64,000 nt of DNA. Origin: Chloroherpeton thalassium ATCC 35110 (lineage in GTDB: Bacteria > Bacteroidota > Chlorobiia > Chlorobiales > Chloroherpetonaceae). Position 1 is the stretch's first letter. The number at the start of each line of letters is the position of its first letter. This document shows positions 17,601-22,226 of this stretch, piece by piece. Location of the stretch: the NCBI RefSeq assembly GCF_000020525.1, contig NC_011026.1:62001-126000 (forward strand), in the 5' to 3' direction. The notes beneath the pieces were generated by a model. That model made no database searches. It saw only the letters and a list, made by a program, of their open reading frames with translations, and was not told the origin of the DNA. Made by a program: the position numbers and the translations under genes.

Positions 17601-19391
17601 ATGGTTTTTCATCAAAGAAGCTTGAAAAATAAGATCGCGGCGCACGCCCAGCCGGCCTTTGCTGAAGGCGTTTTTTCCACAGGCGATTGCGACAAAAAGC
17701 AACACAACTTGGCGCTCCTCACCCTATTCCTTTTTCTTACACTTTTACTTCTTTTACCGCAAAACGCATTGGCGGGCGAAACCATCAGCGTTTCGGTCAC
17801 TTTAGAAAACAAGCAGGTTTATACAAAAAAAATCGCGCTTTATAGCGTCGGAAATCTGAAAATGGTGGCGGTTTCAGAACTTTGCGACGCCTTGCGGCTT
17901 TCGAACACGCAAAGCTTGGCCGATTTGGTCGTCACGGCAAAACCGGAAAGTCAGCGCGAGTTTTGCACGTTTAGGCCGCTTAATCATTTTGCCGTGATTC
18001 GCTCGATGGAAGGCAGCAAACCTGCACACGTGTTGCAACTTGGTGTTGCGCCAGCTATGATTGGCGGCACGATTTATCTTCCGCCGGCGCAAGTTGCTCG
18101 GCTTTTTTCATCGTGGCAAGGGCTAAAATTTGAATACAATTTGGTAACCAAAATTTTTACGGCTGACTTTTCGCAAAAACTTTCGGCCTCGATTGCAAAA
18201 TCACCTACGCCGCCCAGCCTTTCAGAAAAAGATGAAAAGGAAAGCTTAACGCTCGACGAACAAGACAAAGTCGATACGCGATTTACGATTCCAAAATTCA
18301 GCATCGATGAAAAAGCAAACGGCGCAATTATCCGCATTTATTGCACGCGCCCAGAGGTCGAATATGAATTCATCCGCCCGAATAAAAACGGGGTCGCGTA
18401 TTTGACTTTCCGAAACGCCGTTGGCGATATCAAAAACCTAACGCAGACTTTTAGCACAGGATTACTAAAGGAAGTGACTGCGTTTGCGTTGCGTTCCGGC
18501 GGCTTGCAACTGACGCTGAACTTTAACACGAAACGCTACAAGATTAAATCGACCGAATGCAAACGCGACGAAAAAAGCGATGATTTTCTGGTGCATGTTC
18601 TCAGCGATGTGGATGTTTCGGAAATTTACAAGACGGAAAAAGAGAAGGAAATCAAAGCGCTGCTGCAAGAAGATCGCGAACGATGGAAACTGGACGTTAT
18701 CGCACTCGACGCAGGCCATGGCGGGAAAGATCCTGGCGCGATTGGCTATTCTGGCACGTACGAAAAAAATGTGGTGCTCGGCGTGGTGATGGAACTTGGG
18801 AAATTGATAAACCAATATTGGCCAGATGTGAAAGTGGTTTATACCCGAAAAACAGACGACTTTATCGAGCTCGACGAGCGAGGAAGAATTGCCAACCAGC
18901 AAAATGCCAAGCTTTTTGTGAGCGTGCATTGCAATGCGAGCCGCAATCAGCGAGTTTCAGGTGTGGAAGTCTATATGCTCGGCTTGCATAAAACCGATGC
19001 GGCACTTCGCGTGGCTGAGCGCGAAAACGCCGTTATTTTGCAAGAAGATGATTACAAGGATCGCTATAAAGATTTCACTGACGAGAACCTGATTATGATC
19101 ACCATGGCACAAAGTGCGTTTTCGTATCAGTCGCAGAAACTGGCTGATTTGATCAATAGAAATATCCAAGAAAGAACGAAACAGGCTGGCAGAGGTGTTA
19201 AACAAGCTGGATTTATGGTGCTTTGGACGCCTTCAATGCCAAGCGTTTTGGTTGAGGCTGGCTACATTACCAATCCTCGCGAAGAGCGTTTCCTAAAATC
19301 TAAAGAAGGCCAGCTACGAGTGGCTCGCGCTATTTTTGAAGGCCTCAAAAAATATCGATCGGATTATGAAGCGCAATTAAAAGCGCGGTAA
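17601..19391 (+). CDS. N-acetylmuramoyl-L-alanine amidase (AmiC-type)
   Basis: A 596-residue secreted cell-wall hydrolase that cleaves the amide between N-acetylmuramic acid and the stem peptide. A long hydrophobic segment (LALLTLFLFLTLLLLLPQNALAGE) acts as signal. The middle (about residues 230-335) resembles an AMIN-type beta domain. The C-terminal Amidase_3 domain has the zinc ligands in LDAGHGGKDPG and VSVHCNA, with a glutamate ligand in YEKNVVLG and the catalytic glutamate in LVEAGYITNP. The C-terminal signature IFEGLKKY is usual. The start ATG at 17601 gives a long, polar N-region before the signal, so a later start is possible. Confidence 0.93.
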   Translation: MVFHQRSLKNKIAAHAQPAFAEGVFSTGDCDKKQHNLALLTLFLFLTLLLLLPQNALAGETISVSVTLENKQVYTKKIALYSVGNLKMVAVSELCDALRLSNTQSLADLVVTAKPESQREFCTFRPLNHFAVIRSMEGSKPAHVLQLGVAPAMIGGTIYLPPAQVARLFSSWQGLKFEYNLVTKIFTADFSQKLSASIAKSPTPPSLSEKDEKESLTLDEQDKVDTRFTIPKFSIDEKANGAIIRIYCTRPEVEYEFIRPNKNGVAYLTFRNAVGDIKNLTQTFSTGLLKEVTAFALRSGGLQLTLNFNTKRYKIKSTECKRDEKSDDFLVHVLSDVDVSEIYKTEKEKEIKALLQEDRERWKLDVIALDAGHGGKDPGAIGYSGTYEKNVVLGVVMELGKLINQYWPDVKVVYTRKTDDFIELDERGRIANQQNAKLFVSVHCNASRNQRVSGVEVYMLGLHKTDAALRVAERENAVILQEDDYKDRYKDFTDENLIMITMAQSAFSYQSQKLADLINRNIQERTKQAGRGVKQAGFMVLWTPSMPSVLVEAGYITNPREERFLKSKEGQLRVARAIFEGLKKYRSDYEAQLKAR

Positions 19392-19608
19392 AAACCCGAT
19401 TTAGATTGCCCAGAAAATTCCAGAAAAGGCCATCGCATAGGTTACAAAATGTTCAAGCATTTTTTATTTTTACCCTATTGTTAACATAGAGTCAGAAAAA
19501 AAACCTACCCCGTTTTCACTCACATGTTTTAATAAAAAAGGTATTTTGCGGTTTTCAGATGCGGATACCATTTGTTGCTGGATGCTTTAACTTTTTTATG
19601 TAGAAGAT

Positions 19609-21069
19609 ATGACACCGTTTAATAGCCATCCCCCCAATAGACTCACCAAAACGCTTGATGCAATTAGCAATGCGGTTGATTGGGACAAAGTGCTAAAATT
19701 TTTAGACGAGCATTCTGTTGAAGACTCAATCGTGAAACTTCCACCTGAAAAGCTGCTGCGAAACATGAAGTTCGTGTTCCTACAGCATATTTACGATCTT
19801 GCCGACTATGACTTAATCGAACTCATCAACGATCGGATCTCTTTTAAGATCTTTTTTGGACTTGAGCCTGATGATGATTTTGAAGATGATGAGGCTTCAG
19901 CTGCGTTTCGAGAGCTGCTTCTTGAAAAAAGGCTGTACACGCCTCTGATTAATTTTATATGGGCATCTCTTGAAATCAGCGGCTTTTCGATTGAAAAAGG
20001 TGTTATTATGGATGCGCGAATACGCGACACCGAGACACCTGCGCCAAAACCACCCGACACGCCCCACGAACCAGCAAAGCACCCATCACCTGAATTGCAT
20101 ATTAGTTATGACACCGTTCAAAAGATGATTCGCGGTGAAATTGCGCAGCCATTTGAAACCTATGCGCTACAAATGCAGTTGCATCAAGCTCAAAAAGATG
20201 TTCGCAGCGGCGCGCTTTCTTTGGACGAAGCCACGGAAAATCTGTATAAACTCTGCGCTTTGGTGCTAACGAAAAAAAAGCCGGCGGAAAAAAGCCCTAC
20301 GCCGCCAGCCAGCCCGGCACCAAAAACAACCACACCTCATGCTTTACCACAGAAAGTCAACCATGACCTTTTGAGAAAGCTGATTCTGGGCGAAGTTCAC
20401 TATCACTTCAAGCATTATGCGCTTCAGATGCAACTGCATCAATCCCAAAAAGAAGTCCGCAACGGCGTGATTTCCTTAGACGAAGCAACAGACAACCTTT
20501 ATGAGCTTTGCAAGCGCTTGCTGACGAAACAGTTGCCGGCTCATAAACCGCAAGTCGAACACGCCTTGCCACCAGCAAAAGAGCCGCCAGCCACATTCAA
20601 AATCAACCGCGAGATCCTTGAAAAAATGATTCGCGGCGAGCTCAACCAAAACTTCAAGCATTATGCACTTCAAATGCAATTGCATCAAGCGAAAAAAGAA
20701 GTTGGCTCGGGCAGTTGCTCAATCGACGAAGCCGTTGAAAAGCTCTACGATCTTTGCAAGCATGTACTTGTGCACAAGCCATACGACGAGCTCACGCACG
20801 AAACCCACGACACGCACGAAACGCATCCGCTTCCGCAACATAGAAAATTACCCGACATCAACCGGGTTGAATGGAAAAAGTTAGTTACGGGGGAATTGGA
20901 ACATCAATTTAGAAATTATGTTTTGCAGGTGCAGCTACACCAAACTAAAAAAGAAGTTCGCAGCGGAAAGCTCTCGGTTGAACGCGCTGTTCAAAATTTA
21001 TACAATTTATGCCTAAGGGTTCCCTTAGCGGTTCAAACAGATTTCAAACAAATTTTTAAAGAGTGGTAA
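19609..21069 (+). CDS. Domesticated IS5-type transposase N-domain fused to four novel repeats
   Basis: A 486-residue protein. Residues 1-140 match the N-terminal DNA-binding domain of IS5-family transposases (DUF772 type): LPPEKLL, FLQHIYDLADYDLIELIND, RISFKIFFGL, FRELLLEKRLY, and GFSIEKGVIMDARI, where Asp135 sits where the first catalytic Asp of the DDE triad would be. The rest of the catalytic domain is absent. It is replaced by four copies of a 54-residue repeat at about residues 170-223, 254-307, 336-389 and 420-474. Each has a G-E start, a YALQMQLHQ core, KKEVRSG and a LDEATxNLYxLC end. Pro-rich linkers separate them, and the third contains an H-E-T/H-D-T repeat. The next gene starts three bases after the stop. 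Confidence 0.8.
   Translation: MTPFNSHPPNRLTKTLDAISNAVDWDKVLKFLDEHSVEDSIVKLPPEKLLRNMKFVFLQHIYDLADYDLIELINDRISFKIFFGLEPDDDFEDDEASAAFRELLLEKRLYTPLINFIWASLEISGFSIEKGVIMDARIRDTETPAPKPPDTPHEPAKHPSPELHISYDTVQKMIRGEIAQPFETYALQMQLHQAQKDVRSGALSLDEATENLYKLCALVLTKKKPAEKSPTPPASPAPKTTTPHALPQKVNHDLLRKLILGEVHYHFKHYALQMQLHQSQKEVRNGVISLDEATDNLYELCKRLLTKQLPAHKPQVEHALPPAKEPPATFKINREILEKMIRGELNQNFKHYALQMQLHQAKKEVGSGSCSIDEAVEKLYDLCKHVLVHKPYDELTHETHDTHETHPLPQHRKLPDINRVEWKKLVTGELEHQFRNYVLQVQLHQTKKEVRSGKLSVERAVQNLYNLCLRVPLAVQTDFKQIFKEW
20101..21040 (+). repeat. Four-fold 54-residue protein repeat
   Basis: At DNA level the four repeats lie at about 20116-20277, 20368-20529, 20614-20775 and 20866-21030 with spacings near 250 bases. 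The conserved protein core YALQMQLHQ(A/S)(Q/K)K(D/E)VRSG, with helices before and after, points to a small three-helix module. Copies 1-3 are closest, and copy 4 replaces YALQMQ by YVLQVQ. The copies differ at synonymous sites, so the duplication is old. Confidence 0.85.
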
Positions 21070-21072
21070 GCC

Positions 21073-22065
21073 ATGCAAAAAAAGCTATATACACTTGCAG
21101 AAGTGACGGAGTTTATTCTGCAAGGCGCTAAATTAGTCATTTCTGCCGATGAAAGCTTGTTGGATCAACTCCCTGCTGGCAATTGGATCGGCGGTACAAT
21201 TCCCTACTTTATGACCGAACAAGGCGGCTCATTTTCAAAAGATAAACTCTTTGTCGATGACTTAAGCGCTTACGGACTTGAAGTATCATTCAAAGCGTAT
21301 GACGAAACTGATATTCAAACTATCACTAAAAGTAGTTTTGAAAATGGCTTCACCATTTTAATTCTCCCTGCTGGCTCTAAGGTTCACGAATCATTCAGCC
21401 TCAACTCGATGAGCTATAAGGACATTTTCTTTAAGCCCATCACAGGCTATGTTTCTGGTTTCGATTTGAATTTGTTAGGCTCAGCGACGGCAAAAACATA
21501 CCTTGGAAAGGCGCAAATGAAGTATGAAGATAAAGGCGTAGCCATGCACGTGAAGCTGCCTGACGATCAATTTGCCAAAATTGAAATTTTTAATTTGATG
21601 GAAATTGACGAAAGCTCCGACGTAATCACTTTTCCCGAGACAGGCTTCTTACAAAAAAGCTGCATGGTAAATGGCAAAGCAACCAACTTGGCAGAATATT
21701 TATCGAACTTGAATTACGCGGCTGGCCTCCCGCTCATTGCCAATTGCCAAGGCGCTTTGATCAATCGCAGCATAGAAAAGCTCGATATGGACAACAAAAC
21801 AGTGCTTTTCTATGCGCCTGTTTTCAGCGATGAAGTGTATCGGTTGGCAAAGCCCGTAACCAACTATCATGAGGAATTCCAGAAAAGAATTGAAATTTAC
21901 GCAGACGAAAACGTGATCTACTCGGTGCTTTGCGTGGTTTATTATATGGTTGGCGAGCTTGAAAACAAAAAACTGCCGGTTTCTGGCTCGTTCACTTTTG
22001 GCGAAGTCGGCTACCAATTGCTGAACCAAACGCTTGTTTATTTAACCCTGAGCAACTCTCACTAA
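21073..22065 (+). CDS. Uncharacterised partner protein of the repeat gene
   Basis: A 330-residue cytoplasmic-looking protein with no signal or membrane segment. It has a recognisable small family pattern, GNWIGGTIPYFMTEQGG near residues 36-52, a sheet-rich middle (KVHESFSLNSMSYKDIFFKPITGYVSG) and a C-terminal helical part (VGYQLLNQTLVYLTLS). I believe it belongs to an uncharacterised conserved family (perhaps DUF6976-like), but I cannot name a function. The gly-rich start is faintly reminiscent of FIST sensor proteins, which is only a guess. It begins three bases after the transposase-derived repeat gene, so the two are co-transcribed and probably co-functional. Confidence 0.75.
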   Translation: MQKKLYTLAEVTEFILQGAKLVISADESLLDQLPAGNWIGGTIPYFMTEQGGSFSKDKLFVDDLSAYGLEVSFKAYDETDIQTITKSSFENGFTILILPAGSKVHESFSLNSMSYKDIFFKPITGYVSGFDLNLLGSATAKTYLGKAQMKYEDKGVAMHVKLPDDQFAKIEIFNLMEIDESSDVITFPETGFLQKSCMVNGKATNLAEYLSNLNYAAGLPLIANCQGALINRSIEKLDMDNKTVLFYAPVFSDEVYRLAKPVTNYHEEFQKRIEIYADENVIYSVLCVVYYMVGELENKKLPVSGSFTFGEVGYQLLNQTLVYLTLSNSH

Positions 22066-22166
22066 GGAAAAACAGCTTCATGCCAGATCAGGCTCGATGT
22101 TTTTCTGTTTTTTTTCGCTTTGAAAAACTGAAATGGCGCTGATTGGAATCACTGAAAAATAGGTTG

Positions 22167-22226
22167 GCATTTGCCGCAATGATGAACACTGACACGAACG
22201 TGTCGAAACATTATTGCAGCAAATGC
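22167..22226. repeat. Nested 60-base inverted repeat (cruciform-like)
   Basis: Arms GCATTTGC-C-GCAAT (22167-22180) and its complement (22213-22226) pair over 14 bases with one mismatch. The enclosed segment contains a second small hairpin GACAC-GAAC-GTGTC (22191-22204). It lies in the convergent gap between the 330-residue gene and the radical SAM gene. There is no T-run, so it is more than a simple terminator. Confidence 0.65.

Follow-up and report, generated by a model that had tools for sequence, protein, structure and literature searches.

The window analysed here, a stretch of 64,000 nucleotides from contig NC_011026.1 of Chloroherpeton thalassium, carries at 19609-21069 on the plus strand a single intact open reading frame with an ATG start, 486 codons for amino acids and no internal stop. 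The product begins with an IS5-type transposase N-terminal domain (residues 10-146; 19636-20046), which is followed by Pro-rich linkers and four copies of a helical module. The first linker (residues 141-165; 20029-20103), evident in the sequence, has a pLDDT below 50 over most of its length. Module 1 (residues 166-222; 20104-20274), module 2 (residues 246-309; 20344-20535) and module 3 (residues 328-391; 20590-20781) are without the last helix, and module 4 (residues 411-486; 20839-21066) is complete; all are on the plus strand. After three intergenic nucleotides, a second plus-strand gene (21073-22065) specifies a 330-residue, FIST-superfamily-like protein of the DUF6976 family (PF22396, 3.5e-121). 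The two genes probably form an operon, in which the DUF6976 protein would be the partner of the 486-residue protein. The gene at 19609-21069 is present once in the genome, which is a single contig of 3,293,456 bases.

The four repeats can be followed in the DNA, where the later copies are 65-78% identical to the first over 96 nt and are spaced by 255, 246 and 255 nt, and in the protein, where 20 of about 70 columns are invariant. A profile built from 23 stand-alone modules, with the sequences of the window left out, matches the 486-residue protein in four domains with 142 bits, against 5.6 bits for the best of 200 shuffled sequences; modules 1 to 4 contribute 19.6, 33.7, 25.6 and 59.9 bits. 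The sequence-only reading, which described four repeats with Pro-rich spacers, is thus borne out at the level of DNA, protein and profile, except for the size of the unit, which is about 75 residues rather than 54. The shorter figure arises because modules 1-3 are without the last helix. Helical repeats had also been foreseen, and in the full-length model (pLDDT 66, pTM 0.38) three helices are predicted in each of modules 1-3 and four in module 4. The head and the modules are predicted to be ordered and the linkers disordered, an architecture that would resemble beads on a string.

The repeat is not listed in Pfam, NCBIfam or PADLOC, nor in the PDB by sequence, where searches with the repeat and DUF6976 profiles gave no significant match. 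Zero PADLOC matches were obtained for a link to defence. An origin of the repeat in the AraC-type HTH_18 domain was considered and rejected: the summed repeats reach 30.3 bits against a cut-off of 33.6, single repeats reach 15-17, and for two stand-alone modules the AraC HTH_18 family is not listed at E-values up to 10. The nearest relative of module 4 is a stand-alone protein of 77 residues from a Cytophagales MAG (L052), with 49% identity. In a tree, the four modules of the window cluster together (support 0.86) and lie beside the one module of a Cytophagales MAG protein.

The head is matched over residues 17-146 by the IS5 transposase model NF033581 (transpos_IS5_4; E=4e-12; profile positions 3-133 of 285), and the N-domain taken alone gives 25.9 bits with PF05598 (DUF772), above its cut-off of 23.1, so that the proposed IS5 N-domain in the first 140 residues stands. 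With 46 bits, the 486-residue protein does not reach the family cut-off of 140 bits for the IS5 model. The alignment of the head with IS5 transposases extends as far as D135, the first DDE aspartate, and its predicted structure is helical with a beta-hairpin (pLDDT mostly 80-93). Identity to IS5 relatives has fallen to about 30%; L64, D66, D75-R76, S78-F79, G84-L85, R101, G131 and D135-A136 are kept in the alignment with IS5 proteins, and the GRP motif, P92, T96 and W98 (P92-D-x-x-T-x-W), which are conserved in IS5 relatives, are changed. The net charge of the head is -14 (pI 4.4), compared with -6 to +3 in these relatives. We read this as a domain that has probably kept its fold and lost its original surface residues. 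DNA binding by the head is doubtful, because the conserved surface residues are lost and the domain is very acidic; the description of the head as a DNA-binding domain is therefore unsupported as it was put. The head may bind DNA of another kind, dimerise or contact a protein.

What is shared with IS5-family transposases (NF033581, PF05598) is thus their N-domain, residues 17-146, through the first DDE aspartate. Unlike them, the window protein is acidic, has lost conserved surface motifs and is without the catalytic remainder: a complete DDE catalytic domain is absent and no remnant of the remaining transposase follows the head. No convincing inverted-repeat pair flanks the gene (19000-22200), and no second IS5_4 transposase was found in the 3.29-Mb genome. 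The view that this is not a mobile element is upheld on all these counts. If the locus were the decayed or non-autonomous remains of an IS5 element, with a repeat gene of other origin captured behind it, the IS5 N-domain would be accounted for, but this reading is already contradicted, as there is no convincing inverted-repeat pair, no C-terminal DDE part and no second copy, and the repeats are explained by the module that partners DUF6976; it is scarcely credible.

Searches for the protein as a whole were largely empty. Nothing beyond matches to the IS5 N-domain was found in the phylum sample, no homologue in GTDB contigs, viral contigs or phages, and only weak IS5 matches among plasmids, so that no second genome with an IS5 head joined to modules was found in any of these collections. 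Foldseek gave no match for the full-length model. One repeat match in a genome of the sample (G073, E 0.0098) was dropped, as it sits among overlapping reading frames on both strands.

The module, by contrast with the whole protein, shows conserved synteny with DUF6976. DUF6976 is present in 4 of 394 genomes of the phylum; in the other three of these, and in three plasmid copies, the reading frame directly upstream resembles one repeat. This partner is a 373-residue protein with two module copies in Ideonella and a small reading frame in the others. The module is confidently detected in exactly the four DUF6976 genomes among 389 of the phylum (other matches have E-values of 1.6e-4 or more), giving a hypergeometric p of about 1e-9 with kinship ignored. 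When genome contigs were scanned with an alignment of DUF6976, at least 580 relatives came up; 80 were retained, and nearly all of these have a small module-like reading frame upstream. In a set of 87 loci, which includes some near-duplicates and one identical pair (L050 and L126), 82 have one to four copies of the module, either as part of the gene next upstream or in one polypeptide with DUF6976; most of the partners are headless. By record title, the sampled loci come from Bacteroidota, Chlorobi/Ignavibacteria, Proteobacteria, Spirochaetes, Chloroflexi, Clostridia, Acidobacteria, Opitutales, Oligoflexia/Bdellovibrio and others. Judged by these comparisons, the repeat is a tandem form of an undescribed helical module of about 75 residues that partners the DUF6976 family. 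The sequence-only reading was right that the repeat is new, but it is no orphan; and the protein is better described as a partner of DUF6976 that acquired the N-domain of a transposase and came to carry several copies of its module than as a transposase in which repeats took the place of the catalytic domain.

Five DUF6976 loci are without the module (L057, L067, L079, L100 and L114). In three of them a bacteriohemerythrin-like gene lies directly upstream in its place (L057:164-580, L067:4574-4984 and L100:232-642), and in L057 a GAF-SpoIIE gene lies downstream of DUF6976; such neighbours suggest a gas or redox signal. In the Lachnospiraceae locus L114 (5001-5963), no module is detectable near DUF6976. 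No constant third gene accompanies the pair in the 58 loci scanned, where genes for SpoIIE, histidine kinases, response regulators, GAF and hemerythrin proteins each occur in two or three. In five flavobacterial loci (L054, L055, L059, L062 and L069) the module carries on its C-terminal side a long extension that is charged and probably coiled; directly downstream lies a third gene, of about 120 codons, for which Pfam gives no convincing match. An Achromatium contig has a caspase (Peptidase_C14) and FGE-sulfatase protein encoded downstream of DUF6976 (L113:7571-9778).

In Chloroflexota, the module and DUF6976 are joined in frame as one polypeptide of 410-420 residues (twice in L119, in L071 and in more). 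The two fusion genes of L119 (1415-2653 and 4749-5993) are 60% identical and have a LuxR-type response-regulator-like gene between them. Among the hints that the module and DUF6976 may touch each other directly, this Rosetta-stone pattern is the strongest. For one fusion, the model, with a four-helix module, a poorly ordered linker and DUF6976, is confident (pLDDT 92), and its pTM of 0.80 could also be reached by two independently placed domains and is no proof of docking; in part of the alignment used for this model, module and DUF6976 sequences from a single locus were paired by translating across the stop codons that separate them in the natural DNA.

DUF6976 is likely to be a remote member of the FIST superfamily. 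Pfam FIST_C (PF10442) gives the DUF6976 protein 12.2 bits (E 0.2), below the cut-off of 28.5, and hhalign of DUF6976 against FIST proteins of related genomes gives a probability of 90.8 and an E-value of 1.2e-6 over columns 31-328, almost the full length. With the model of a DUF6976 relative, the best PDB matches in Foldseek are to FBXO22, a eukaryotic FIST-domain protein (probabilities 0.97 and 0.95; E 1.3e-3 and 3.8e-3); the E-values above 0.001 and TM-scores of about 0.4 count against these matches. It is the hhalign and Foldseek results together that make the relation likely. DUF6976 is probably ligand-sensing; no mention of the family was found in the literature searched. FIST proteins of the NosP kind serve as ligand-sensing subunits attached to a partner of their own, which they control and whose gene lies next to theirs; NosP itself, a sensor carrying heme, binds a kinase and inhibits it (PMC12570481). 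Next to DUF6976 one regularly finds the new helical module instead of a histidine kinase.

The acquisition of a transposase head is not confined to the window. Many beta- and gammaproteobacteria have a module protein with a different N-domain, of the ISL3 type. In L118, which has four modules, the head matches the ISL3 zinc ribbon PF14690 above cut-off (3e-6) and NF033550 (1.1e-5); the other ISL3-type heads align with that of L118 and have lost the zinc-ligand cysteines. These proteobacterial proteins share the layout of the window protein, with an N-domain, low-complexity linkers, one to four modules and DUF6976 next to them, but their heads come from an unrelated transposase family. The four modules of L118 are nearest one another in the tree, as are those of the window, so the copies multiplied separately. 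Given the IS5 head here and the ISL3 heads in Proteobacteria, capture of a transposase N-domain by a module protein has happened at least twice. Reuse of a transposon-related part is also seen in domesticated proteins that serve bacteria as regulators, such as TldR, which is described as an RNA-guided transcription factor with DNA as its target (PMC13418256). The window protein differs in reusing the N-domain only, with doubtful DNA binding.

On balance we favour, with some reserve, a role for the 19609-21069 product as a multivalent adaptor for the DUF6976 protein of the next gene; the binding, its stoichiometry, the ligand, the output and the target of the head are what we infer. Each helical module would bind one FIST-like DUF6976 subunit, four modules on flexible linkers would gather several sensors onto one protein, and the IS5-derived head, its fold kept, would dimerise the adaptor or attach it to a target. 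The earlier suggestion of a scaffold or regulator is still the best conjecture, and a specific partner is now added to it. Several features count against the adaptor. Modules 1-3, without the fourth helix, may bind DUF6976 differently or not at all; some DUF6976 loci, as listed above, have no module; and the DUF6976 protein of the window has VLC in place of CNC in the FSCNCILNY motif of nearly all relatives, so that the first cysteine and the asparagine are lost and the second cysteine is kept.

In an alternative arrangement, the head would bind operator sites and the modules would recruit FIST-like sensors whose ligand alters transcription. The N-domains of IS5 and ISL3 transposases are thought to share end binding to DNA, and the joining of these two unrelated domains to the same module, as well as the near-neutral to positive net charge of the ISL3-type heads, would fit such a DNA-anchored regulator. 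The acidity of the IS5 head and its changed GRP and P92-D-x-x-T-x-W positions argue against it, as do the loss of zinc-ligand cysteines from ISL3-type heads other than that of L118 and the prevalence of headless partners, and we consider it rather unlikely. Still less probable, to the point of being a poor candidate, is that part of a transposase gene was joined to a module gene by accident and that the head has no role. That the combination of IS5 head and modules is known from a single genome, with no homologue found, would be expected of such an accident, but the 140-residue frame has stayed open and fold positions have been kept despite about 30% identity, and there is a parallel ISL3 fusion in many proteobacteria.

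The adaptor reading can be set in a wider frame, for which the chances seem evenly divided: an undescribed and widespread pair of adaptor and FIST-like DUF6976 protein, in which repeated capture of IS5 or ISL3 N-domains and multiplication of the module would have given rise to multivalent sensor-binding regulators, a convergent domestication of transposases. These results establish a protein module that is new and conserved and connect it with a family of FIST-like proteins, of unknown function, that occurs in many bacterial phyla; the natural fusions of module and DUF6976 make direct interaction testable. The independent joining of two unrelated transposase N-domains to one module suggests that parts of mobile elements may become signalling proteins.
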